Of a stretch of DNA of 64,000 nucleotides, positions 3,401-26,368 are shown one piece after another. Location of the stretch: NCBI RefSeq assembly GCF_016907235.1, contig NZ_JAFBBO010000001.1:2170001-2234000 (forward strand), written 5' to 3'. Positions within the stretch are counted from its first letter, which is position 1. Each line of letters begins with the position of its first letter. The notes below the pieces were generated by a model, which saw nothing but the letters and a program-made list of their open reading frames with translations, was not told the origin of the DNA and made no database searches. The position numbers were made by a program, and so were the translations under genes. Source of the stretch: Oerskovia jenensis (GTDB taxonomy: Bacteria; Actinomycetota; Actinomycetes; Actinomycetales; Cellulomonadaceae).

Positions 3401-5188
3401 ATGGCACTCGGACTCGGTCGCCCCCAGGACAAGCGCAGCAGGACGGTCGCCGACCTGCTCGTCGCGCAGCTCATCGAGGCGGGGGTCGAACGCATCTACG
3501 GGATCGTGGGCGACAGCCTCAACCCCGTGGTCGACGCGGTCCGGCGCAGCCAGAAGGGGAAGGGCAAGGGCATCGAGTGGGTGCACGTGCGCCACGAGGA
3601 GACGGCCGCGTTCGCCGCCGCGGCCGAGGCCGAGATCACCGGGAAGCTCGCGGTGTGCGCGGGCTCGTGCGGGCCCGGCAACCTGCACCTCATCAACGGC
3701 CTCTACGACGCCAACCGCTCCAAGGTGCCGGTCCTCGCGATCGCGAGCCACATCCCGAGCGCGCAGATCGGGACGAGCTTCTTCCAGGAGACCCACCCCG
3801 ACCGCCTGTTCACCGAGTGCTCGGTGTACTCCGAGATGATCTCGTCGGCCACCCAGGCACCCCGCGTCATCAACTCCGCGATCCACCACGCCTACGGTGC
3901 CCCGGGCGTCTCGGTCCTGACCATCCCGGGAGACGTCGCGGACCTCGACGCCGCGGCCGAGGTCATCGACGTCGCGGTCCACCCGGCCAGGCCGCGGATC
4001 ATCCCCGACCCCGACGCGCTGCGGACCCTGGCCGACGCGATCAACGCGGCGAAGAAGGTCACGATCTTCGCCGGGGTGGGCACCCGCGGCGCGCACGACG
4101 ACGTGATCGCGCTCGCCGACAAGATCGCCGCGCCGATCGGCCACTCGCTGCGCGGCAAGGAGTGGATCCAGTACGACAACCCGTTCGACGTCGGGATGAG
4201 CGGGCTCCTGGGGTACGGCGCGGCGCACGACGCGATGCAGGAGGCCGACCTCCTGGTCCTGCTCGGCACCGACTTCCCGTACGACCAGTTCCTGCCGGAC
4301 TCCGTGCGCACCGCGCAGGTCGACACCGACCCCACGCACCTGGGCCGTCGGACGCGGCTCGACGTGGCCGTGGTCGGCGACGTGGGCGAGACCGTACGGC
4401 TCCTGCTGCCGCTCGTGAACACGGCCAAGAACCGCTCGTTCCTCGACGGCATGGTCGCCAAGCACGAGAAGTCCATGACGGGCGTGGTCGGGGCGTACAC
4501 CAAGGACGTCGAGAAGCACTCGCCCATCCACCCCGAGTACGTCGCCGACCTCCTGGACCAGGAGGCCGCCGACGACGCGGTCTTCACCGTGGACACGGGC
4601 ATGTGCAACGTGTGGGCCGCCCGGTACATCAGCCCCAACGGCAAGCGCCGCGTGATCGGCTCGTTCCTGCACGGGTCCATGGCCAACGCGGTGCCGCACG
4701 CGATCGGCGTCGCGGCCGCCCAGCCGGACCGCCAGGTCGTCGCCATGGCGGGCGACGGCGGGCTCTCGATGCTGCTCGGCGAGCTCATCACGATCAAGGC
4801 CTACGAGCTGCCCGTGAAGATCGTGCTGTTCGACAACGCGAGCCTGGGCATGGTGCGCCTCGAGATGCTCGTCGACGGGCTGCCCATGTTCGGCACCGAG
4901 TCGCCGCACATCGACTACGCCGCCGTGGCCAACGCGATCGGGATCCCCTCGGTGCGGGTCGAGCGGGCCAAGGACGTGCGGGGCGCGCTGCGCGGGGCTC
5001 TCTCCCGCCCCGGCCCCGCACTGGTCGACGTCGTGACCGACCCGCGGGCCCTGTCCCTGCCCCCGACCATCACGGCCGGGCAGGTGCGCGGCTTCGCGGT
5101 CGCGATGAGCAAGGAGATCCTGGGCGGCGGCATGGGCGAGGTCGTGTCGATGGCGCGGTCGAACCTGAGGAACGTGCCGCGTCCGTAG
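3401..5188 (+). CDS. poxB: Pyruvate dehydrogenase (quinone), PoxB type
   Basis: 595 aa, thiamine-diphosphate enzyme converting pyruvate to acetate and CO2 while passing electrons through FAD to membrane quinone (menaquinone expected here). ATG 3401 follows GCGGAGG at a good distance. Domains in order: N-terminal PYR domain with catalytic-glutamate motif RHEETAAFAA near residue 66 and the strongly PoxB-like CAGSCGPGNLHLINGL; central FAD/Rossmann domain (about 190-340); PP domain with ThDP/Mg motif AGDGGLSMLLGE and N at FDNASLGMV. The C-terminal tail (EILGGGMGEVVSMARSNLR) resembles the membrane-activation peptide of E. coli PoxB. Monocistronic, followed by a hairpin repeat. Confidence 0.92.
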   Translation: MALGLGRPQDKRSRTVADLLVAQLIEAGVERIYGIVGDSLNPVVDAVRRSQKGKGKGIEWVHVRHEETAAFAAAAEAEITGKLAVCAGSCGPGNLHLINGLYDANRSKVPVLAIASHIPSAQIGTSFFQETHPDRLFTECSVYSEMISSATQAPRVINSAIHHAYGAPGVSVLTIPGDVADLDAAAEVIDVAVHPARPRIIPDPDALRTLADAINAAKKVTIFAGVGTRGAHDDVIALADKIAAPIGHSLRGKEWIQYDNPFDVGMSGLLGYGAAHDAMQEADLLVLLGTDFPYDQFLPDSVRTAQVDTDPTHLGRRTRLDVAVVGDVGETVRLLLPLVNTAKNRSFLDGMVAKHEKSMTGVVGAYTKDVEKHSPIHPEYVADLLDQEAADDAVFTVDTGMCNVWAARYISPNGKRRVIGSFLHGSMANAVPHAIGVAAAQPDRQVVAMAGDGGLSMLLGELITIKAYELPVKIVLFDNASLGMVRLEMLVDGLPMFGTESPHIDYAAVANAIGIPSVRVERAKDVRGALRGALSRPGPALVDVVTDPRALSLPPTITAGQVRGFAVAMSKEILGGGMGEVVSMARSNLRNVPRP

Positions 5189-5201
5189 GCGCCCGGCTCG
5201 T

Positions 5202-5258
5202 CGAGTGTGCAGCTCGGGCTGTTCGGACACGTTCCCAGCAGCCCGAGCTGCACGCTCG
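5202..5258. repeat. Dispersed palindrome, family B (GTGCAG-Y-TCGGG), intergenic
   Basis: 20-bp arms (5202-5221 and 5239-5258, one mismatch) between convergent poxB and a tetR gene. The arm CGAGTGTGCAGCTCGGGCTG matches, with a few changes, the arms at 17491-17549 and 60808-60864. It can act as a bidirectional terminator, but the conserved sequence marks it as a repeat family. Confidence 0.75.
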
Positions 5259-5340
5259 GCGTCCCACGCCCGGCGTCCCACGCCCGGCGCGTGGAGATCG
5301 GCCGGGGCCCGAGCCCTGCTCCGAGCCTGGGGACAGGCCC

Positions 5341-5934
5341 TCAGCGGGGGAGGTAGCGCACGAGCAGGTCGAGGTAGCCGTCGCGGTCGAAGTCCTCGAC
5401 GAGCGCCGCCTGGAGCATGCACCCCTGGCACGCGCTGACGAACAGCGGAGCCTGTTCGGCCGCGAGCGCGGCCGCCTCGGCCTCGCCGTGGCCGTTCGTG
5501 GTCCGGTGCCACACCGTGAGGTAGTCCTCGAAGGTCCGCAGGATGCGGTCGATGACACCCGCGGCGAGCTCGCGCAGCGCGGGGTCGGTCATGGCTTCTC
5601 CCCAGAGCTGGACGAGGATCCTGGGATCACGGAGCTCGCGCTGCACGCCGGTCATGAGGACCCGGACGACCTCGGCCGGGACCGGGAGCGGTTCGCTCGC
5701 GGCGAGCTTCTCGACGTCCAGGACCCGCGCGCCGACGATCCGGCTCGCCGTCTGGTGGACAAGCTCGGTCTTGCTCGCGAAGTAGCCGTAGATCGCGCCG
5801 GCCGACACCCCTGACTCGGCGATGATGTCCGCCATCGATGCGGCCTGGAACCCCTTGCGACGGAACACCCGCAGGGCGGCCTCGACGATCTCGTCGCGGC
5901 GCGCGGCTCGGTACTCCTCGGTCACTCTGGGCAC
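5341..5934 (-). CDS. TetR-family repressor
   Basis: 197 aa. The N-terminal helix-turn-helix (residues about 10-56) reads DEIVEAALRVFRRKGFQAASMADII then SGVSAGAIYGYFASKTEL, the standard TetR pattern; the rest is an all-helical ligand domain typical of the family. It is divergent from the membrane protein at 6027, with two copies of CGAACRTTCG in the 92-base gap, so it probably represses that gene and itself. The effector is unknown; an exported toxic or lipophilic compound is plausible because the target looks like an efflux-type permease. Confidence 0.9.
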   Translation of the reverse strand: MPRVTEEYRAARRDEIVEAALRVFRRKGFQAASMADIIAESGVSAGAIYGYFASKTELVHQTASRIVGARVLDVEKLAASEPLPVPAEVVRVLMTGVQRELRDPRILVQLWGEAMTDPALRELAAGVIDRILRTFEDYLTVWHRTTNGHGEAEAAALAAEQAPLFVSACQGCMLQAALVEDFDRDGYLDLLVRYLPR

Positions 5935-16823: not shown

Positions 16824-17588
16824 TCACGGCACCGCGTCGAGGACCATCCAGGTGACGTGCGGCGTCGGGCCGACGGCGCCGCCCGGGTCCCAGACGGCGT
16901 CGCACCCGTCCGGGCCGCCCGAGACAGCGCCCCAGTCGAGACCTGTCGCTCCCGTGACGTACGCGATCGCGACCGCGGCGTCGTCGCCCGCGACCGCCGG
17001 CCACGAGAGCCCGGTCACGACGACCCACGTGCCCGGGACCTTCCAGTACTCGACGGGTTCGTCGGCGTCGACGCCCTCCAGGCCGAGCGCTGCGACGAGC
17101 TCGCGCGTCCGGGCTGCGGCCTCGTCCGCGTCGCGCGCCTCGACGTGGGACCGCAGCGTCACGTGACGGTGGCGCAGGCGGTCGCCCGGCCAGGTGCGTC
17201 CAGCCGTCTCGGGCGCGTGCTCCTCGACAGCGAGCCGCCTCCCGTCGTCGGCCCGGAACCAGCCCGTCGGCACGATCCGGTCCGCAGGGACGCCGACGAG
17301 GTCTCCCTCGCCGTCGAGCTCGACCGCGAACGACCAGGGGCGACCCCGCCACGGGCGGACGACCCCACGCACCACGCCGACGCCCGCCTCCGCACCCGAG
17401 GGCGCGAGCACCCGGACCTCGTGCCCCCACCAGACGGCGGGCGGCTCCTCGTCGGTCTCCACCAGGGGACGGTACCGCGGCGTCCCGTCGCCGAGAGTGC
17501 AGTTCGGGCTGTCGTCCGGCGCGTAGGACGACCCGAACTGCACACTCGGCGAGCGGCCTCGGGAACCGGCGCGACGTCGTCGGGCCAT
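16824..17588 (-). CDS. Uncharacterised protein with a palindrome-encoded N-terminal segment
   Basis: 254 aa from ATG 17588. No family recognised. Residues 1-12 are basic (MARRRRAGSRGR). Residues about 13-33 (SVQFGSSYAPDDSPNCTL) are encoded by a family B palindrome. A soluble alpha/beta domain follows, with two apparent halves: WWGHEVRVLAPSG..VGVVRGVV, then a C-terminal part containing YWKVPGTWVVVTGLSWP and HVTWMVLDAVP. A shorter start after the palindrome (GTG in PLVETDEE) is possible, in which case the repeat would be merely upstream. Not evidently part of an operon. Confidence 0.6.
   Translation of the reverse strand: MARRRRAGSRGRSPSVQFGSSYAPDDSPNCTLGDGTPRYRPLVETDEEPPAVWWGHEVRVLAPSGAEAGVGVVRGVVRPWRGRPWSFAVELDGEGDLVGVPADRIVPTGWFRADDGRRLAVEEHAPETAGRTWPGDRLRHRHVTLRSHVEARDADEAAARTRELVAALGLEGVDADEPVEYWKVPGTWVVVTGLSWPAVAGDDAAVAIAYVTGATGLDWGAVSGGPDGCDAVWDPGGAVGPTPHVTWMVLDAVP
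17491..17549. repeat. Dispersed palindrome, family B, near the 5' end of a gene
   Basis: 18-bp arms (17491-17508 and 17532-17549, one mismatch), extended by a partly paired GTCGTCC/GGACGAC inner stem. The sequence matches the intergenic copies at 5202 and 60808. Confidence 0.75.
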
Positions 17589-17618
17589 CTCGACCGGAGG
17601 ACTCGCCGTCCCGCACCG

Positions 17619-18512
17619 CTACCCGGCCACGGACCGCGCCGCCTCCCGACGCGCGTCGGCCGCCGCCCGCAGGACTTCGGCCGTGCGGTCGTCGGCCGGG
17701 AGGAACGTCTCGATCGTGAGCTCGGACAGCGTGACGTCGACGGGCGTCCCGAAGGTCGTGACCATCCCCAGGAAGGCGAGCTCGTCGGCGCCGTGGCGCA
17801 GCCGGAACGGGATCGCGAGACCGCTCCGCTCGGGGTCGGCCGGCCCTGCGCCCGCTGCGGGCACGGCCGGGACCGGGTACGCGTCGACCTCGCGGTGGAG
17901 CTCCGCGAGGTCGACGTCGGCGCTCCACTCGACCTGGCGACGCAACCGGCCCAGCAGCTCCCCGCGCCAGCGGGCGAGGTCGACGACGTGCGGCGCCATG
18001 CCCCGCGGGTGCAGACCGACGCGGAGCACGTTCACGGGCTCGGTCAGGAGGTCCTCGTCGACCCCGTCGAGCAGCACCTCGACCGACGCGTTGGCCTCGA
18101 TCAGCGTCCACGTCCGGTCCACGACGAACGCCGGGAACGGGTCGTGCGCGTCCAGGACGGCCCGCAGCGACAGCCGCAGGGACTCCAGCGCCGCACCGTC
18201 GACCGGGGTCTCGGGGTGGGCGGGCGCGTACCCGGCGGCCAGCATCAGGCGGTTCCGCTCGCGCAGCGGGACGTCCAGGACCTCTCCCAGCCGGGCCACG
18301 AGCCCCGGGCTCGGCCGGGACCTCCCGGTCTCCACGTAGCTCAGGTGCCGGGTCGAGACGTCGGCCTCGATCGAGAGCGCGAGCTGGCTCACGCGCCGGC
18401 GCTCGCGCCACCCGCGGAGCAGCGCGCCCACGGAGGTCTGCGCCGGCGGGGTGGCGGGCGTGCGGATCGCCGTCCGGGGCGCAGGGCCCGCAACGGCCGG
18501 GACCCCGGTCAC
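17619..18512 (-). CDS. XRE-family regulator with MmyB-like ligand domain
   Basis: 297 aa from GTG 18512, whose GTGA overlaps the stop of the upstream membrane-protein gene. The helix-turn-helix (about residues 18-75) contains RRVSQLALSIEADVSTRHLSYVETGRSRPS. The MmyB-like domain follows: FPAFVVDRTWTLIEANASVEVLL, then VNVLRVGLHPRGMAPHVVDLARW. This domain binds fatty-acid-like ligands in a characterised homologue; the ligand here is unknown. Coupling with the membrane protein suggests co-regulation, possibly through the palindrome at 19012-19028. Confidence 0.9.
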   Translation of the reverse strand: MTGVPAVAGPAPRTAIRTPATPPAQTSVGALLRGWRERRRVSQLALSIEADVSTRHLSYVETGRSRPSPGLVARLGEVLDVPLRERNRLMLAAGYAPAHPETPVDGAALESLRLSLRAVLDAHDPFPAFVVDRTWTLIEANASVEVLLDGVDEDLLTEPVNVLRVGLHPRGMAPHVVDLARWRGELLGRLRRQVEWSADVDLAELHREVDAYPVPAVPAAGAGPADPERSGLAIPFRLRHGADELAFLGMVTTFGTPVDVTLSELTIETFLPADDRTAEVLRAAADARREAARSVAG

Positions 18513-18949
18513 CGAGGGCCGCCCAGGCGGCGCAGGGCGACCGCTTCGGTGATCGTGATCCACAGGACGGCGACGGCCTGGGCGGCCACGAAGAGGACTC
18601 CCCAGAGCGTGGGCGACCAGACCAGCAGGACGGCGACGCTCGCGGCCATCCACGCGCAGTTGGCGACGACGACGGCCCGCGCGGCGCCCCGATGGAGGGG
18701 AACGGCGTGCGCGGTGAACCACAGGAAGGTCGCGAGGACCACGAGCACGACGCCCGCCCCGACCAGGAGCGGGACGGGCAGGCCGAGGGGGCCGGCGAGC
18801 GGGACCGCCGCGACCAGCAGCAGCGGTGCGCTCACGAGCCCGGCGACCGCGTCGGTACGGATCGCCCGCCGGAGGTCGGCCTCGGGGGCCTCGGGCCCGG
18901 GGTGGGACGCGGCGGTGCGGGCGGGAGCGGGACGGGGAGCGGGATGCAT
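18509..18949 (-). CDS. Four-helix membrane protein coupled to the XRE regulator
   Basis: 146 aa. A Pro/Ala-rich cytoplasmic start is followed by four hydrophobic helices (about 35-58, 62-84, 90-108 and 115-135). No family recognised; the compact four-helix form resembles several unnamed actinobacterial membrane proteins and SPW-like proteins. GGAGG lies 5 bases before ATG 18949, an excellent ribosome site. It is first gene of a two-gene unit with the MmyB-type regulator. A 17-bp operator-like palindrome lies 63 bases upstream. Confidence 0.7.
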   Translation of the reverse strand: MHPAPRPAPARTAASHPGPEAPEADLRRAIRTDAVAGLVSAPLLLVAAVPLAGPLGLPVPLLVGAGVVLVVLATFLWFTAHAVPLHRGAARAVVVANCAWMAASVAVLLVWSPTLWGVLFVAAQAVAVLWITITEAVALRRLGGPR

Positions 18950-19011
18950 CGTTACCTCCGGTGGGCGGGCGTTGTGGGTCCCACTCTCGGGCGGACGCGT
19001 GCACCCTGTCG

Positions 19012-19028
19012 ATGACCTCGGAGGTCAT
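19012..19028. promoter_or_regulatory. Operator-like palindrome upstream of the membrane protein/XRE pair
   Basis: ATGACCTC-G-GAGGTCAT, perfect 8-bp arms around one base. Its position 63 bases upstream of the ATG suits a regulator site. No direct link to a particular protein can be shown. Confidence 0.4.
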
Positions 19029-19134
19029 GCTGACGCCCCAGAAACCGGCGCCCCCCAAGGGAGACCCCTCCATGCCCCCTGCCGGATGGCTGGCGCGTAG
19101 TCTGGATGCGACGAGCGCCGGCCATCCATCGGAG

Positions 19135-20196
19135 TTACTCGCTCCTTCGCAGAAGATCAAATTCCCTGCCGTTTCGCGGGACCGTAAGGCTTGCCACCAG
19201 CACCACCAGGGCGAGACACGCCAAATAGCTCGCACCTCCACGGAGAAGGGCTTGCTGAAGAGCGACAAGAGATCCATCTGCCACATGATGAATAGTGAGC
19301 AGCGTGGAGGCGAGGCTCGGTAGAATCGTCAAAGCAGCCTCGGCCGCACCGATCACCACAAGGCCGACCCGAGGCGCACCGCAGGTTGAATAAAGAGCTA
19401 ACTCGCGCGAACGCATGCGAAGCATGAGCGCCGTGACGAGCGAAAAGAACACGGCTGGAGCAAGCCACAGCAAGCGGTCCGGCCGTCCTGCTTGAACGGA
19501 CTCAAGATCAGGTACCGCGACGTCGGTCAGAGGCGCCACGATCACGGGACCCGTAAACTCAGTCGACAGGATCACTGAAGCCAACGCTCGATCGATGTCC
19601 CTAGAGAACTCCACGAGACACTGGCCTTGCACGGCAGAGCCGACTTCAACAAACACAATGGCCCTCGAGGCCGACTCGGCACGGGGGCTTGCCGAACCTA
19701 AGCTCACGCTCGAGCTTCTCCCCGCGATGTTCACCCGGTGGTCGGGGCCAAGACCTAACTCATCCGCTGCGCCCGCGCCGACATAGAGCGACGAATCATA
19801 CACTGGCCTGAAACCTAGAATTTCCAACGCGCCACTAGTTGCCAAGAATGAAGCGAAGACTCCTGCAGGCTGCTCGTCGACGACGACAGAATCTGATGCC
19901 GCGATGCCTCCCGATTGCTTGACTATCTCACCGATAGAACGCAGAGCGCCACACTCCTGCCCCGAGACGCCACCACTTTCTCCGACTCCGGCGTCGGCTG
20001 CGCTCACAAGATAGGCGCGACCGCCCGCGTCAACCGCCTCGCGATGCTCGCGCAGCATGCTCTCGTAGAACTGGGCTTCCCGTGCACCCAAGAAACCAAA
20101 CGACAAGACGGCTATTATCGCCAGCACAAAGAATCGCCAAGGAGTGGCAAGGATGTTCGCGAACGCCTCTTGAATGCACAGGAATATCAACCTCAT
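19135..20196 (-). CDS. FtsX/MacB-like ABC transporter permease
   Basis: 353 aa from ATG 20196, which overlaps the ATPase stop (ATGA). Layout is that of MacB-type permeases: one N-terminal helix (about 20-40), a long extracytoplasmic domain (about 45-245) and three C-terminal helices (about 250-272, 285-310, 320-340), with short cytoplasmic segments such as RSRELALYSTCGAPR, which fits the FtsX 'coupling' loop. Last gene of the island operon. With the ATPase and the peptidoglycan-binding adaptor it would form a MacAB-type pump acting on extracytoplasmic substrates or conferring resistance. The sequence is less GC-rich than flanking DNA, suggesting acquisition. Confidence 0.75.
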   Translation of the reverse strand: MRLIFLCIQEAFANILATPWRFFVLAIIAVLSFGFLGAREAQFYESMLREHREAVDAGGRAYLVSAADAGVGESGGVSGQECGALRSIGEIVKQSGGIAASDSVVVDEQPAGVFASFLATSGALEILGFRPVYDSSLYVGAGAADELGLGPDHRVNIAGRSSSVSLGSASPRAESASRAIVFVEVGSAVQGQCLVEFSRDIDRALASVILSTEFTGPVIVAPLTDVAVPDLESVQAGRPDRLLWLAPAVFFSLVTALMLRMRSRELALYSTCGAPRVGLVVIGAAEAALTILPSLASTLLTIHHVADGSLVALQQALLRGGASYLACLALVVLVASLTVPRNGREFDLLRRSE

Positions 20197-20849
20197 CGGT
20201 CTGCGCCAAGAACTACATGGAGCCGGCACGCGCCAGCCACGACTAGATCGTGCGTGGCGAGCAAGAGCGTCACAGATGGCGCAACGGAGGATAGGGCGGC
20301 AATCACGGATGCCGTGTTCTCACCATCCAGCGATGCGGTCGGCTCATCGGCGAGAATGAGTTTTGCACCTCGGACCAGAGCGCGAACGAGGGCGACGCGC
20401 TGCACCTCTCCCCCGGAAAGAACCGAAACATTCTTCTGCACCGCAGACGACAGCCCCATCTCGGCCAGGAGATGGAGCGCCAGATCCACCGCACTCACGC
20501 TGTTGGTAGGCGCAAAACGGGAAGCTAGCAGGACATTGTCAAGAACGGATCTACCAGGCAGGATCGTCGGCGTCTGGGGAATCCACGCGATGCCGACCTC
20601 CGAGCGTAGGCGCGTACGCATACGCGCCGACAGTCGTGAGTACGTCTCGCCGTAGAACGAGAGCTCTCCAGACGACCAGTTCGTCTGTAGACCGACTATT
20701 GCCATCAGCGTTGACTTGCCGCTTCCCGATGGGCCCGAAATGGCGACGGACGACCCTGCCGGGACCTCGAACGAAGTGGGGTGCAAGACTGTCAGGTTCC
20801 CCAACTTCTTCTCGACCCGATCAAGCTTGACCGCCGCATGCGGGCTCAA
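20193..20849 (-). CDS. ABC transporter ATPase (MacB/LolD type)
   Basis: 218 aa. Walker A GPSGSGKST near residues 39-47, Q-loop WIPQTPTI, signature LSGGEVQRVALVRAL, Walker B LILADEPTASLD and H-loop ATHD are all intact. Such short ATPases drive MacB/LolCDE/FtsX-like permeases. It overlaps the adaptor gene by four bases and the permease by four bases, so translation is coupled. Codon choice is more A/T-rich than in genes outside the island. Confidence 0.9.
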   Translation of the reverse strand: MSPHAAVKLDRVEKKLGNLTVLHPTSFEVPAGSSVAISGPSGSGKSTLMAIVGLQTNWSSGELSFYGETYSRLSARMRTRLRSEVGIAWIPQTPTILPGRSVLDNVLLASRFAPTNSVSAVDLALHLLAEMGLSSAVQKNVSVLSGGEVQRVALVRALVRGAKLILADEPTASLDGENTASVIAALSSVAPSVTLLLATHDLVVAGACRLHVVLGADR

Positions 20850-21952
20850 GAGTCTCCCAAGCAGATCGTGTCCAGCTTCGACGAAACGGGATTCGCAACA
20901 TACTCGACGGTGGACTGCTGCGACAGTTCAAAGAGGCCAACCCCTGAAGCGGTGTCGCTCGAGAGGACATCCACACGTTGGGCCGCGTGCCCCTGCTTGT
21001 CCTTCACGACAAGACACTCGCCCGCTGTCGTGCTGACAATCGCGTGCGACGAGACCTTCACTAGAGACTCCGGGTAGACGATCGACAACTGTACGGGCAC
21101 CTCGACCGTGAGTTGCGCCGGCTCAGACCCTTGGAAAACGCTGGAAAGAAAAGGCAGCGTGACTGGATTGATAGCGATCTCGCCCGTTGGACCCACCTCG
21201 GCTCGGGCGTCGCCCAGTGCAGCGGTCAGCACCGAGCCCTCTGGGCTACTCGCTAGTGAGACAATGTGTGCGCTGCTTATCGTCGACTGGAGGGTCGCTA
21301 TCGATTCGCCTGCGCCCGGCGCTGGCTCCCCCACTGCAACGTCGATGCTTCCGAGTACGCCAGACGGGTGCGGTATCCAGATGGTCCAACTAGGAGAGAA
21401 TGTCGACACCTCCTCTGGTTTGAGTGGAGGTACGCCGATGTACTCCCGGAACTTTTTCAGGGCGGATGCCGTGCGGGAGTCGAACTTTTCAGGTTGCTTC
21501 GGCAGCGACCGCATGTAGCCCAAGTCGAGAAGCAGGCGATTCAGGGCTCGCACGTCCTCGCCTGTATCGCCTTCTACTAGTTCCCGGAAGAACGGACCGG
21601 AATGTGCCGCGATTCGCTTGACACCTTGCACCTCCAAGACGACTGTTCCGGTCTCGAACGTTGATCCGGCGACTGCCACTACATCTGTCACCACTCCGTC
21701 CCAAGCAGGAGCAAGCAGCACCTCGGAGGGAGTCCTAGACACGGCCAGCTGGGTGGCGACGCTGCGCGTCTCGCCGCTGGCAGACGCTACTACGTAGATC
21801 GGCGCCTCGGCGGCCGCGAGCTCGACATCCAGGTTCTTCGCTGTCTGATACAGATAGACGGTGGCTGCGGCGACGATCGCTAGAAACGTCACCATCAGGA
21901 CACCGGCGGTACGCACTCCTGCTGGTGGGGGGATCGAGTTCCTCAACGACAA
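20846..21952 (-). CDS. Membrane-anchored transport adaptor with peptidoglycan-binding domain
   Basis: 368 aa from TTG 21952 (GAGGCGG upstream). One N-terminal helix (about 15-37), then a lipoyl/HlyD-like half (PAWDGVVTDVVAVAGSTFETGTVVLEV, about 80-108). A PGB_1 peptidoglycan-binding domain follows (about 118-170: ELVEGDTGEDVRALNRLLLDLGY and RTASALKKFREYIG), then more adaptor beta-barrel sequence. This architecture is known from Gram-positive adaptors that accompany MacB-type ABC transporters, linking the pump to the wall. Gap to the lipoprotein gene upstream is three bases; overlap with the ATPase downstream is four. Confidence 0.82.
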   Translation of the reverse strand: MSLRNSIPPPAGVRTAGVLMVTFLAIVAAATVYLYQTAKNLDVELAAAEAPIYVVASASGETRSVATQLAVSRTPSEVLLAPAWDGVVTDVVAVAGSTFETGTVVLEVQGVKRIAAHSGPFFRELVEGDTGEDVRALNRLLLDLGYMRSLPKQPEKFDSRTASALKKFREYIGVPPLKPEEVSTFSPSWTIWIPHPSGVLGSIDVAVGEPAPGAGESIATLQSTISSAHIVSLASSPEGSVLTAALGDARAEVGPTGEIAINPVTLPFLSSVFQGSEPAQLTVEVPVQLSIVYPESLVKVSSHAIVSTTAGECLVVKDKQGHAAQRVDVLSSDTASGVGLFELSQQSTVEYVANPVSSKLDTICLGDS

Positions 21953-21955
21953 GGT

Positions 21956-22603
21956 TCAGCCCGCCTCAAGCTGCTCTAGGGCATCGCTGAGTCCCGGGAC
22001 GGCGGTCACGGTCGCAGTCTGAAGTTCGAGTGAGCACTGTTCGACGAGCTCGAGCCGCAAGGGCGGATCTGGTTCAGTACGGTCTGCCTTGACGGCTTCC
22101 TGGAGGACTTTTGTCGCCTGTTCATACGAATCCTCTGGGGCGATCTCCTCATAGCCTGCGTCGTGTGCGCACGAGACAAACCCGCTTTTGGCTGCCTCGA
22201 GCTCGGAAGCGCTGGGCTGCTTCTGAAGAAGCCAGACAGCATCAATAGCGTCGACCTCCGCCCGGCAGTCCTCTGCGAGTTTCGACTTCGAATCAGCTTC
22301 CTCATCTGAGCCCGCTTCAAATTCGACTACCACGCCGCTGATGCCGGACGCAAGACCAGTCGATTCGGTAGCAAAGCCCTGCGACTCCAAGCACTCGATG
22401 TATGATCGCGTGCCATGCTCCAGTTCGTCCTGGCTCACCACTTTGTCAGACAGAGCATCTTGCTCGATGGAACTGAGGCTGGATAGCAGCTCAATCGCGC
22501 GAGCATCGATCTCGGGCGCTCCTTGAGCAGACGAGCAGGCGGTCCCGATCAGCAGAATGGCGATTGCCCCGAGACCGATGGCGGCGTTCCGTTGGTGCAA
22601 CAT
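21956..22603 (-). CDS. Lipoprotein of the island operon
   Basis: 215 aa from ATG 22603 (GGAAGG upstream). Signal peptide with lipobox IGTAC at about residues 18-22. The exported part is acidic and mostly helical, with five further Cys (IECL, EDCRAE, VSCAHDAG and EQCSLE contexts). The spacing hints at two related helical halves, each with a Tyr/Cys motif (RSYIECLESQGF and SGFVSCAHDAGY). No known family. Position directly before the adaptor suggests that it is a substrate-capturing or immunity lipoprotein for the pump; this is inference. Confidence 0.7.
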   Translation of the reverse strand: MLHQRNAAIGLGAIAILLIGTACSSAQGAPEIDARAIELLSSLSSIEQDALSDKVVSQDELEHGTRSYIECLESQGFATESTGLASGISGVVVEFEAGSDEEADSKSKLAEDCRAEVDAIDAVWLLQKQPSASELEAAKSGFVSCAHDAGYEEIAPEDSYEQATKVLQEAVKADRTEPDPPLRLELVEQCSLELQTATVTAVPGLSDALEQLEAG

Positions 22604-22635
22604 TGTGGCCTTCCAGAATTTGTGGGGCGATTCGA

Positions 22636-22956
22636 CTACTGGTTTCTTGCCAGCTTTAGCCGGGTCACCAGGTCTTCGAGCTTTACCAGCTCCTGATCGA
22701 TCATCTTTCCGCCCTGCTTGGTGAGCTGGTACCAATTCTTACGGCCAAGAGTGTTTCGCCGATTTACGTACCCGGCTTCTTCGAGTGCGCGAAGGTGGCG
22801 CCCCAGGTTCCCGTCCGTGAGTCCGAGCTCAGCCTTCATGTACTGGAACGTCGCATACTCAGCTTCGGTAAGAAGTGCGAGTATCGATAGGCGAGTTCGT
22901 TGGTATGCGAGCTCGTCGAGGCTCTTCACGACCTGATGTGCGCCATCACTTGTCAT
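22636..22956 (-). CDS. Winged-helix transcriptional regulator (HTH_34/ArsR-like)
   Basis: 106 aa. One compact winged-helix domain: RLSILALLTEAEYATFQYMKAELGL, recognition region TDGNLGRHLRALEEAGYV, wing NRRNTLGRKNWYQLT, then a short dimerisation helix. This is the small regulator type that often accompanies a membrane protein in ABC/peptide systems. Its start overlaps the end of the membrane-protein gene by 11 bases, so it lies in the operon and probably acts on the palindrome at 23495-23511, which overlaps the promoter. Confidence 0.85.
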   Translation of the reverse strand: MTSDGAHQVVKSLDELAYQRTRLSILALLTEAEYATFQYMKAELGLTDGNLGRHLRALEEAGYVNRRNTLGRKNWYQLTKQGGKMIDQELVKLEDLVTRLKLARNQ

Positions 22957-23482
22957 TGGATCGTTCTCGCTTCAGTTCCTTGGCACCCAGGTACCAGAAG
23001 AGCGCAATAGATCCTAGATCGAGGGCCAGCATGACGAGACGGCTGTCATCAATCGCTGAGATGTAGGAAAGGACTGTCGTCACTGCTCCGTATCCGAGCA
23101 AGATCAAAGAGCTGGCGAACAGTCGCCTATTGCTCGAAACGATCGCGAGAAGCACAAGCAGCAATGCGAACGCTAGTTCTGGCCGAATGAAGTACATCAG
23201 GATGCGCCCGCCGAGGAACAGGACAATTGCGACCAGCGCGAGCACCAGAAGCGTCTGACGGAGGCCCCGGATCGCTCCGACTCTCCATCCTCTCGCACCC
23301 AGAAGGCTGGCGATAACAAGCGGAGTTAGCGCGAGAAGGGGGACCCAAGTGGTGAGCTTTGGGGGGTCGACCGCAGCCCCGACGAGCATCCCGATGGTGA
23401 TTGCAGCCGCTGCCGTAAGGAGCGGGATCGAGGTAGCCCGAGTCTGGCTCTGTATCGCGTTTAACGCCATCTTTGAAAACAT
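22946..23482 (-). CDS. Six-helix membrane protein, first gene of the island operon
   Basis: 178 aa from ATG 23482, or 174 aa from ATG 23470; neither has a strong ribosome site. About five or six hydrophobic helices, e.g. SIPLLTAAAAITIGMLVGAA and LLVLALVAIVLFLGG, and a basic end KELKRERSNDK. No family recognised. Because it is co-encoded with the winged-helix regulator, it might sense the membrane or the secreted protein, or provide immunity. The promoter at 23507-23535 reads directly into it. Confidence 0.65.
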   Translation of the reverse strand: MFSKMALNAIQSQTRATSIPLLTAAAAITIGMLVGAAVDPPKLTTWVPLLALTPLVIASLLGARGWRVGAIRGLRQTLLVLALVAIVLFLGGRILMYFIRPELAFALLLVLLAIVSSNRRLFASSLILLGYGAVTTVLSYISAIDDSRLVMLALDLGSIALFWYLGAKELKRERSNDK

Positions 23483-23494
23483 CCATAGGGTTGA

Positions 23495-23535
23495 ACTCTC
23501 TCGGAGAGAGTATCGTCTCTTGCTGGGCTGTGCAA
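23495..23535 (-). promoter_or_regulatory. Promoter with overlapping operator palindrome
   Basis: On the minus strand TTGCAC (23530-23535) and TACTCT (23507-23512) are separated by exactly 17 bases, a good sigma-70-type promoter. The palindrome ACTCTCTC-G-GAGAGAGT (23495-23511, perfect 8-bp arms) overlaps the -10 box. A protein bound there would block polymerase. Best candidate is the winged-helix protein of the operon. Confidence 0.6.
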
Positions 23536-23583
23536 GTGGGGTTGTCGACCGCGCGGTAAGCACGCGTGGCTGGTCGGGCAGAG

Positions 23584-23625
23584 CCTCGCTCCCGACCTGA
23601 TGCACATGGCAGGTCGGGAGCGAGG
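23584..23625 (-). terminator. Terminator between the secreted-protein gene and the operon
   Basis: Perfect 16-bp stem (23584-23599 with 23610-23625), 10-base loop, 14 bases after the secreted-protein stop. It separates that transcript from the promoter at 23535. Confidence 0.75.
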
Positions 23626-23639
23626 TTTGGAGCATTGCG

Positions 23640-24071
23640 TTACGCCGAGATCCGAACGCACGCGTAGTTGGAGAAGGTGTTGCTGCTGGCGTCGTTCTTC
23701 GAACGCCCGCAGAAGTCGCTGCCGTTCGCCATGTTGCCCGGGGCCTTCCAGATGACGTCCACCTGCAGCGGGTTCAGGACGCATCCGCTCGGGTTGCTGA
23801 GTCGGTAGGCGTAGCTGACGGTGTTAATCTTCTTGTACTTGAACTCATGCGAACGGGAACAGATGTTCGCATTCCATCCCACCCCCGGAAGGTAAGAGCT
23901 CTCTGCCTGCGCGACATTGAGACCACTGCCGACCACGGAGATGCAGTTCTGTGCACCCCACCCGCCCGGCGCTGCGGTGCAGCCTTCGGCGGCGCTCGAA
24001 GGGGCCGCCGTGGCGAACATGGTTGCTGCTGCGACGAAAAGGACCGCCAGGGCCCTGCTTGTGCGCTTCAA
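23640..24071 (-). CDS. Sec-secreted six-cysteine protein (possible bacteriocin or effector)
   Basis: 143 aa from TTG 24071, with AGGAGG four bases upstream. Signal peptide KRTSRALAVLFVAAATMFATAAPSS.. with a likely cut after APSSAA near residue 28. The mature part of about 115 aa has six Cys (in GCTAAP, NCISV, ICSRS, GCVLN, FCGRS, ACVRIS), enough for three disulfides. It is rich in Gly, Asn, Ser and aromatic residues, like small extracellular antimicrobial or inhibitor proteins. No family recognised. It has its own ribosome site and terminator but lies immediately upstream of, and parallel to, the regulator/ABC operon, so it is probably the product handled by that pump or its cue. Confidence 0.7.
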   Translation of the reverse strand: MKRTSRALAVLFVAAATMFATAAPSSAAEGCTAAPGGWGAQNCISVVGSGLNVAQAESSYLPGVGWNANICSRSHEFKYKKINTVSYAYRLSNPSGCVLNPLQVDVIWKAPGNMANGSDFCGRSKNDASSNTFSNYACVRISA

Positions 24072-25003
24072 GATTCCTCCTGCTGATAGCGACGTTGCGT
24101 CAGGTGACGTGTCTGGAATCTAACAGATTCTTTGGGAGCTTGGGGCTCTGCCGCGAGGTCCCGCATCACTTTCTTTTGGAGAGCATTTCGTTGCAGATTT
24201 GTTTGCGGATTTGCTTGAAGAGTTTTGGGCATGACAAATGATGGGCGGTGGTTTGCACGTTGTGCAGCGTGACGGTTGACCTACGGGAGACATCGGTGTC
24301 GGAGAACGACTCTGGCGATGATCTCGTCTCTGCAGGACTGTCCTCCTGGCGCGGGTCGGCGGAAGGGGCCGCCGCGCGATCTGTTGCGCCTAGCGCCGCA
24401 GAGGAGGGACAGGCAGGGAGTGCTCCATCTGAGCTCGGCGTAAGGCTAGGCCGATGGAAGGCGTCAGGGCGTGGGGTGCGTGTCGTACGGCCAACTGCGA
24501 CTCCGTCGTCGGGAAGGTAGATGGTACTGATGTACAACATCATCTAACCAGAGTTTGTGTCGGCTCGCGAGGGGTTGCGCAGTGGGGAGGGCGACTGCGG
24601 TCGCGAGGCCGCAGGAGCGGCAACATGGCGCTCCCAGGTGCGAGTTCGGCCGTGTGACGATCCAGGCCGATGGCCATCGCGTGGACATCCAAGCGATGGG
24701 CGAGATCCCTCCTGCACAGACGTGTCAGGCGCGCAACGTGCACGCCGCGCCCGCACCGATCGCGCAGGCGCGGAAGCGCGCGGTCGGCGAGGATGCGAGA
24801 CGCCCCTGACGATCTGTGCTCGACCCGGCGGCCTCGCCCCCTACCACGAGATCATCGAGGTCCTCGATGCTCCACGGATCGGCCTGGTAGAGGGCACCCG
24901 CTTCGGCGACATGTTCTCCAGAGCCGACGACCGAGCCCCTGAGGATGTTCACCCCACCGGCTTCGACATCTCCCGACCGCGTTCCCGCCCGGCCCGGTCC
25001 GCC
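24072..25003. other. 932-base gene-poor stretch at the right edge of the island
   Basis: Nothing convincing is coded here. The left 170 bases are the AT-richer leader of the secreted-protein gene. From about 24500 the base use returns to the GC-rich local average. Short open frames on both strands lack ribosome sites and recognisable motifs. The stretch may hold gene remnants left when the island arrived, but I cannot identify any. Confidence 0.5.
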
Positions 25004-26368
25004 CTACGGCTCGGGGTGCAGCGCGTCGTACTTGAGGAAGCGCGGCTGCGCCCGCAGGATGAGCCACACCACGACGATGCAGGCCAGGCCGCCCGCGACC
25101 GCGGCCCACGCCTCGCCGAACCAGCTCGCCTGCGCACCGAGCACGACCTCGCCCAGCCGCGGGCCGCCCGCGACGACCACGATGAAGACGCCCTGGAGGC
25201 GGCCGCGCATGTCGTCGGGGGTCGCGGTCTGCAGGATCGTCTGGCGGAAGACCGCGCTCACGGCGTCGGAGGCCCCCGCGAGGGCGAGCGCGACGCACGC
25301 CGCGACGAGCCCGCCCACGAGCATCTGGGGCGGGTTCGTCGAGCCGACCAGGAGCAGCACGGCACCGAACGCCGCGATCGACAGCCCCCACGCCGTGATG
25401 GCCCACGCGATCACCAGCCCCTGCCAGCGCACGCGCGACAGCGCCCCGGAGAACACCCCGGCGAGCACCGCGCCGACCGCGAACGCCGCGCTCAGGATGC
25501 CCGTCGTGGTCTCGCCGCCGCCGATGAACAGGACGCCGACGGCGGGCAGCAGCACGCGCGGGAAGGCGAGGATCATCGCGGCGAGGTCGACCAGGAAGGT
25601 CGTGCGGACGTTGGGCCGGGTCGCGAGGTAGCGCAGCCCGTCGATCACGGAGCTGATGCCGACGACCTTGCGGCGGGGTGCGTCGTCGATCGTGACCACC
25701 GAGCTGTCAGAACCAGCGTGACCTGGAGTGCTCGCTGGTTCTGACACGTCACCGGTAAGGACGGGTGGGATCGACGGCAGCCGCCACACGGCCCACAGCG
25801 CGGCCGCGAACAGCACCACGTCGATCGAGTACGCGATCCCGTACCCCCACAGCGCCACGAGGAACGCACCGAGCAGGGGTCCGACGGTCAGCGCGATGCT
25901 CCACGAGATGGTCTGGAGCGCGTTCGCGGCGGGCAGCAGCCGGGGCTCGACCAGTCGCGGGATGATCGCCGAGCGTGCGGGGTTGTTGATCGCGAACGCC
26001 GCGGACTGGAGCGCGACGAGCCCGTACAGGACCCCCACCGAGCCGACGTCGAGCCACGCCTGGAGCGCGAGCAACCCCGTGACGATCCACAGCGCCCACG
26101 ACGCGAGGAGCGCGACCTTGCGGCGGTCGTAGGCGTCGACGAGCGCGCCGCCGTACAGGCCGAGCGCCACGAGGGGCACGAGCGCGAAGATCCCGAGCAC
26201 GCCGACCGCGAGCGTCGAGCCCGTGAGCGCGTACACCTGGAGGCCCACGGCCACGACCGTGAGCTGGGAGCCGAGGTTGGAGATCCCGAGCCCCCACCAC
26301 AGCCGGCGGAACGGCGGGGAGACGCGGAGCGGGGTCGTGTCGGCAAGGATGCCGTCGAGGCGGGGCAC
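25004..26368 (-). CDS. MFS exporter (EntS/MFS_3-like)
   Basis: 454 aa, twelve helices. The start FRRLWWGLGISNLGSQLTVVAVGLQVYALTG and the loop GGALVDAYDRRKVALLAS are typical of the EntS-like group of exporters (siderophore, macrolide or drug efflux). The cytoplasmic loop between helices 6 and 7 (about residues 205-235) contains a family A palindrome read in frame (encoding SEPASTPGHAGSDSS), normally a variable loop. The first ATG has no strong ribosome site visible. Substrate unknown. Divergence or coupling with neighbours is not evident; the right neighbour gntR is on the same strand. Confidence 0.85.
   Translation of the reverse strand: MPRLDGILADTTPLRVSPPFRRLWWGLGISNLGSQLTVVAVGLQVYALTGSTLAVGVLGIFALVPLVALGLYGGALVDAYDRRKVALLASWALWIVTGLLALQAWLDVGSVGVLYGLVALQSAAFAINNPARSAIIPRLVEPRLLPAANALQTISWSIALTVGPLLGAFLVALWGYGIAYSIDVVLFAAALWAVWRLPSIPPVLTGDVSEPASTPGHAGSDSSVVTIDDAPRRKVVGISSVIDGLRYLATRPNVRTTFLVDLAAMILAFPRVLLPAVGVLFIGGGETTTGILSAAFAVGAVLAGVFSGALSRVRWQGLVIAWAITAWGLSIAAFGAVLLLVGSTNPPQMLVGGLVAACVALALAGASDAVSAVFRQTILQTATPDDMRGRLQGVFIVVVAGGPRLGEVVLGAQASWFGEAWAAVAGGLACIVVVWLILRAQPRFLKYDALHPEP
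25705..25746. repeat. Dispersed palindrome, family A, inside an MFS gene
   Basis: 14-bp arms (25705-25718 and 25733-25746) with the same TGTCAGAACCAGCG core as the intergenic copies at 8294, 31104 and 31218. It falls in the central cytoplasmic loop. Confidence 0.82.

Follow-up and report, generated by a model that had tools for sequence, protein, structure and literature searches.

The minus-strand gene island at about 19-24 kb of the window (the whole 64,000-nucleotide stretch of Oerskovia jenensis DNA analysed here) places a gene for a small, secreted, cysteine-rich protein ahead of genes for a membrane protein, a regulator, a lipoprotein and an ABC-type pump, which raises the question of whether these genes form one system and what such a system would do. 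The features considered are the following:

17587..24999, no strand: variable, apparently acquired stretch, from blastn of the window against the orthologous regions of six congeners (G001-G006) and the GC profile
23640..24071, minus strand: SIX, 143 aa, Sec-secreted effector candidate with six Cys past the signal peptide
23584..23625, minus strand: hairpin with a perfect 16-bp stem and a 10-nt loop, just after SIX
22946..23482, minus strand: TM, small membrane protein with about six membrane-spanning segments, candidate immunity or sensor protein
22636..22956, minus strand: WHTH, HTH_34 winged-helix regulator (PF13601, E 5e-16), overlapping TM
21956..22603, minus strand: LIPO, lipoprotein with a lipobox Cys and four conserved Cys, predicted helical
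20846..21952, minus strand: HLYD, membrane-anchored HlyD/MacA-like adaptor with a putative peptidoglycan (PG)-binding domain and one N-terminal membrane-spanning segment
20193..20849, minus strand: ABC, MacB/LolD-type ATPase (PF00005, E 1e-26)
19135..20196, minus strand: FTSX, MacB/FtsX-type permease with one membrane-spanning segment, an external domain of ~207 aa and three further membrane-spanning segments

A low-GC island absent from related genomes

The seven genes extend across 24071-19135 in the order SIX, TM, WHTH, LIPO, HLYD, ABC and FTSX. All open reading frames were found where the original prediction had placed them, and the AT-richer DNA that it described was evident from the GC profile, with a GC content of 0.57-0.61 over 19.0-24.5 kb compared to 0.70-0.77 in both flanks. 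The cassette DNA, at ~60% GC in a 73% GC chromosome, makes up the right part of the variable stretch 17587..24999. The comparison with related genomes that had been suggested for 19.1-24.1 kb revealed a longer difference, as blastn against G001-G006 showed that all six congeners lack 17.6-25.0 kb, each at the same site; in each of them, DNA matching the window at 16.8 or 17.6 kb meets the match at 25.0 kb within ~20-180 bp. This shared absence indicates that the island is more than a chance feature. Directly to its right lies an MFS gene (25004-26368), which is a core gene of the genus and 93-96% identical in the six congeners. Either the window genome gained ~7.4 kb or all six relatives lost it, and the low GC content of the cassette favours gain. 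Examination of the insertion ends in the window revealed no terminal repeats, target duplications or integrase. Overall, horizontal gain of a bacteriocin-type cassette is the most likely account of the island.

The variable stretch also holds, to the left of the island at 17619-18949, genes of normal GC content for an HTH regulator and a small membrane protein, and a piece of the small gene survives in G005. At its left edge, an inverted repeat (17488-17552, with 31-nt arms that are 84% complementary) sits in a part common to G004 and G002. At the other end, the ~0.9 kb that separate SIX from the conserved MFS gene (24072-25000) hold no convincing gene; a 75-aa open reading frame there (24725-24952) may be a remnant.

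SIX, a secreted six-cysteine protein outside known families

SIX starts at a TTG codon a few bases downstream of an AGGAGGA ribosome site. As predicted originally, it carries a Sec-type signal peptide followed by six Cys, a combination which suggests that the exported protein may be disulfide-bonded. The first reading of the sequence had not recognised the protein, and profile searches with the 143-aa sequence likewise matched no library family: no useful match was obtained in Pfam, NCBIfam, PHROGs, PADLOC or PDB sequences, and SIX remained without a Pfam match at E up to 1, which includes PF09683 and I36 (PF03995). The predicted fold was an all-beta, eight-stranded beta-sandwich of moderate confidence (pLDDT 71, pTM 0.64), for which the best fold-search result was CBM56 (Z 8.6, rmsd 2.6, 91 aligned residues). 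No function was read from this fold, as only the common Ig/FN3-like arrangement was matched and the model had a pLDDT of 71.

One-protein and profile searches of 222 family genomes identified clear SIX relatives in three of them: G002, which belongs to the same genus and has two copies, G039 and G062. The G039 locus is that of Cellulomonas hominis, the one locus returned by a scan of genome contigs. In addition, tblastn revealed unannotated SIX-type genes on the plasmids pCpho (Corynebacterium phocae) and pCstat1 (C. stationis), whose products retain four of the six Cys. Most SIX relatives have a pro-segment between the signal peptide and the mature part, which the window protein lacks. Several further candidates were set aside. 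Weak profile matches in distant genomes were partial or covered the signal peptide only, and the protein at L010 looks I36-type instead. The effectors at L055 and L112 were only suggestive and were left uncounted, with 7 of 200 column shuffles scoring as high against SIX and, for L055, at least 5 of 2000 residue shuffles doing so. Rhodococcus RapA/RapB were also considered as a possible relative.

Genes adjoining SIX

The one neighbouring gene that accompanies the clear SIX proteins throughout encodes a membrane protein. In the window TM, which most likely starts at 23482, gave no library match and is overlapped by WHTH. The order in G002 is SIX1-LIPO-SIX2-TM-WHTH, with no pump nearby and with a WHTH homolog (42% identical) that again overlaps TM. 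In G039 and G062 the small TM gene is divergent from SIX, no WHTH lies beside it and no pump is nearby. Homology between the TM proteins was supported only within the pairs window/G002 and G039/G062; between the two pairs it was not significant. On pCpho (L004) and pCstat1 (L075), 5001-5381, the gene after the SIX-type one encodes a very small membrane protein. The same pair of a tyrosine recombinase and a small HTH protein was observed twice, close to SIX in Cellulomonas hominis (L008, 3944-5451) and close to a decayed pump cassette in G001 (L051, 3096-4480), hinting at a shared mobile element behind both.

SIX and TM are separated by ~157 bp containing the perfect 16-bp hairpin, a probable terminator or attenuator dividing the effector from the putative immunity genes. 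Downstream folding was compared between 21 effector genes that do not directly adjoin the next gene and 101 control gene ends; it was stronger behind the effector genes (mean -31.9 compared to -25.2 kcal/mol, p 5e-4), a modest effect which suggests that effectors are expressed above the immunity genes.

The lipoprotein and the pump

LIPO most likely starts at 22603 and has the lipobox IGTAC. In an alignment of 22 such lipoproteins, the Cys of the lipobox and four more Cys were almost invariant, and the family had no Pfam match. Its predicted model was helical (mean pLDDT 80); a fold search against the PDB returned nothing at Z 5 or above, and the PDB sequences gave a weak match to an insect carrier protein (E 0.59).

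The pump genes display the split MacAB-like layout of Gram-positive bacteria, with an adaptor, a MacB/LolD-type ATPase and a four-segment permease with a large external domain encoded next to each other. HLYD overlaps ABC, and ABC overlaps FTSX, by 4 bp each, and a gap of 3 bp separates LIPO from HLYD. HLYD matched PF01471 (PG_binding_1) weakly, at 19.8 bits with a cutoff of 23, and 27 of 36 homologous adaptors matched this profile. ABC possesses Walker A (GPSGSGKST), signature (LSGGE) and Walker B (LILADEP) motifs. Its best NCBIfam model was TIGR03608 (lactococcin-972 ABC), at 144.6 bits and below the cutoff of 254.85; the ATPases beside PF09683 peptides in Cellulomonadaceae reached only 111-113 bits with the same model. 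FTSX, with a most likely start at 20196, gave no Pfam match, nor a MacB_PCD or FtsX profile match at E 0.1, but homologs at the same position do match MacB_PCD or FtsX. Together with the four membrane-spanning segments and the external domain of ~207 residues, these homologs bear out the earlier assignment of an FtsX-like permease.

One pump module behind many secreted proteins

Homologs of HLYD were present in 50 of the 222 family genomes. Examination of 58 distinct pump loci revealed a recurring order of small secreted protein, LIPO, HLYD, ABC and FTSX, with the ATPase directly downstream of the adaptor in nearly all loci; no pump adaptor was found on plasmids. In 41 of the 52 loci whose upstream neighbour lies on the same strand, the gene at position -1 encodes a Cys-rich lipoprotein, whereas the background gave 1 of 127 (p 5e-29); at position -2 or -3, 34 of the 52 have a small secreted gene, compared to 15 of 127 in the background (p 2e-12). 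The background anchors were drawn from the same loci and the window, and the counts are approximate, as signal peptides were called by a simple hydropathy rule.

The secreted proteins fell into 17 sequence clusters besides SIX, or ~15 after dropping two that resemble pieces of lipoproteins. One cluster of five corresponds to lactococcin 972: the three members tested, from L052, L054 and L065, all matched PF09683 (E 4e-13 to 4e-9) and lie directly before LIPO-HLYD-ABC-FTSX, in cassettes that carry no TM/WHTH. Two genomes of another family (G676 and G686) have the classical layout of a PF09683 peptide, a ~695-aa membrane protein and an ABC ATPase, and the lactococcin 972 family is thus served by two different modules. 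Conversely, the lipoprotein-pump module serves many effector families. The original prediction had proposed a self-contained antimicrobial or signalling peptide system with export or immunity. Its antimicrobial-and-immunity part was strengthened by the occurrence of the module after lactococcin-972 and other small secreted proteins in sister genera. The self-contained unit had to be given up: pump genes are absent from the surroundings of the SIX relatives in G002, G039 and G062, and elsewhere the pump accompanies other effectors, which is part of what the original prediction had named as refuting it. Each being found without the other, the secreted protein and the pump are modular rather than one fixed unit.

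Placing the effector labels on the LIPO tree required 6 changes, which is the minimum and was not reached in any of 200 shuffles, and HLYD likewise tracks the effector family, which indicates that cassettes tend to be inherited as units; near-copies contribute to this clustering. The LIPO proteins of the window and G002, both encoded beside SIX, are reciprocal best hits and both form long branches.

Other arrangements were also encountered. I36-inhibitor-type secreted proteins, another of the clusters, occur at L058, L083, L090, L099, L102, L109, L110 and L052:16025-18743, in a parallel version of the cassette. There the secreted protein (its gene divergent at L058) precedes a lipoprotein of greater length and an adaptor, and complete loci also encode a fused MacB of ~620-660 aa. 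The window genome has a second cassette outside the window (L093, G000:C1:2941500-2951000), comprising a 115-aa secreted four-Cys protein, a lipoprotein, an adaptor, an ATPase and a permease. At L049 (1096-6469) two effector genes, one of them shortened, and three lipoproteins precede one pump, and L048 (543-4753) has two lipoproteins and no visible effector, resembling orphan immunity genes.

Possible role of the cassette

The reading that we favour, with a probability of roughly two in three, is that of an acquired effector-plus-immunity cassette of the bacteriocin type, in which SIX is the toxin while LIPO, the MacAB-like pump and TM/WHTH protect the producer. In the mechanism that we infer, which includes the toxicity of SIX, the direction of pumping, the binding of the effector by LIPO and the role of TM/WHTH, SIX would leave through Sec, be oxidised into a beta protein held by disulfide bonds and, once released, attack the envelope of related Gram-positive bacteria, and the terminator-like hairpin would allow it to be produced at a higher level than the downstream genes. 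LIPO, anchored on the outer face, may catch returning effector and hand it over to HLYD-ABC-FTSX, where ATP spent by ABC on the inside would drive an external conformational stroke that pushes the effector outward, and the PG-binding adaptor would keep the outlet in the wall. TM, as a membrane immunity protein or sensor, and WHTH, as its regulator, would probably provide a second layer.

The bacteriocin-type cassette is favoured by the repeated association of the pump module with the Cys-rich lipoprotein and with many effector families, lactococcin 972 among them, by the way LIPO and HLYD track the effector family, by the reciprocal best match of the window and G002 LIPO, by the absence of the stretch from the six congeners, by the presence of SIX relatives on plasmids next to small membrane-protein genes and by the example of the pneumococcal MacAB-like pump (PMC5768738). 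Several observations speak against it: SIX has no similarity to any proven toxin, no pump lies near SIX in three of the four genomes that encode clear members, the comparable ABC system of enterocin DD14 works in export and is not the primary immunity (PMC7332713), some effectors in the slot are I36 peptidase-inhibitor-like and need not be toxins, and small secreted genes are easily found by chance, as the 15 of 127 in the background illustrate. Given those three genomes the pump cannot be a general requirement, and given the Sec signal of SIX it is not needed for crossing the membrane.

The pump and LIPO might instead form the last export step, so that Sec-moved SIX is caught and driven through the wall and TM is the immunity protein. 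This is rather unlikely, even though the module follows slot effectors that already have signal peptides, export of enterocin DD14 is the main role of the comparable ABC system ddHIJ (PMC7332713), and TM adjoins SIX in all four genomes with clear members; the SIX relatives in G002, G039 and G062 would still need release with no pump nearby. That SIX could be a signal is suggested by the overlap of WHTH with TM in the window and G002, and by the SdpC/SdpI/SdpR system, in which one protein is both toxin and ligand (PMC1626106). SIX would then be sensed by TM, TM would control WHTH and the pump would clear SIX, in cell-cell communication rather than as a weapon. We consider this very improbable, since the same module accompanies lactococcin-972 bacteriocins without TM/WHTH, the relatives in G039 and G062 lack WHTH beside TM, and the distribution is sporadic with plasmid carriage. 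Least credible of all appears a SIX that works outside the cell as a protease inhibitor or another kind of binding protein, with the module as a general handler of such proteins: I36-type proteins do occupy the same position beside the fused MacB version and the SIX model is a common Ig-like beta-sandwich, but SIX does not match I36 and the lactococcin-972 members in the slot are bacteriocins.

Beyond the bacteriocin-type cassette itself, a broader proposal, offered tentatively and with the odds against it, is that of a general effector-handling machine of the actinobacterial wall, in which four-Cys lipoproteins would capture unrelated Sec-exported effectors and a PG-anchored MacB-like pump would drive them across. 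If so, new effectors could be plugged in before one conserved module, resembling polymorphic toxin systems, but for small secreted bacteriocins.

Significance and comparison with known systems

New here are the SIX effector family and a lipoprotein family outside Pfam, in what is most likely a bacteriocin-type cassette. The main interest lies in the exchangeable effector slot before one conserved module. A lipobox/four-Cys lipoprotein followed by a PG-binding adaptor, an ATPase and an FtsX-type permease can serve as a handle for finding effectors that profile libraries miss, yielding ~15 unrelated sequence clusters besides SIX in one bacterial family, most of them without a name. It also raises the testable question of how a single lipoprotein-pump module can deal with secreted proteins of so many unrelated kinds, among them the lactococcin-972 peptides that are elsewhere paired with a different membrane protein.

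Lactococcin 972 loci (PF09683 peptide, ~700-aa membrane protein, TIGR03608 ABC) resemble the window in having a Sec-secreted small peptide directly before ABC genes. Their peptides fill the SIX slot in five Cellulomonadaceae cassettes, and of the NCBIfam models TIGR03608 scores best with the window ATPase, though below cutoff. SIX, however, represents a different, disulfide-rich family, and the window has a lipoprotein, a putatively PG-binding adaptor and a short FtsX-type permease instead of the ~695-aa membrane protein. SdpC/SdpI/SdpR of Bacillus subtilis similarly have a secreted toxin, a polytopic membrane protein and a small winged-helix regulator as neighbours (PMC1626106). The likeness is in logic only and not in membership, as WHTH scored 14 bits with the SdpR model NF033789 (cutoff 100) and TM matched no library.

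The role shown for the similar three-part ABC system of enterocin DD14 is export and not primary immunity (PMC7332713). In such ddHIJ-type systems, one adaptor-ATPase-FtsX set is reused with unrelated leaderless and cyclic bacteriocins (PMC7332713), much like the module described here, but these bacteriocins lack Sec signals and the described set has neither a lipoprotein nor a PG-binding domain. The MacAB-like pump of Streptococcus pneumoniae protects against LL-37, its deletion reducing the LL-37 MIC fourfold, and in the published model it takes up substrate at the outer face of the membrane and delivers it to the peptidoglycan layer (PMC5768738). That pump, Spr0693-0694-0695, likewise consists of an adaptor, an ATPase and a separate MacB-type permease (PMC5768738), to which the window pump adds a putative PG-binding domain in the adaptor, a four-Cys lipoprotein and an effector gene. 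The pneumococcal pump is the closest tested precedent for the mechanism proposed here.
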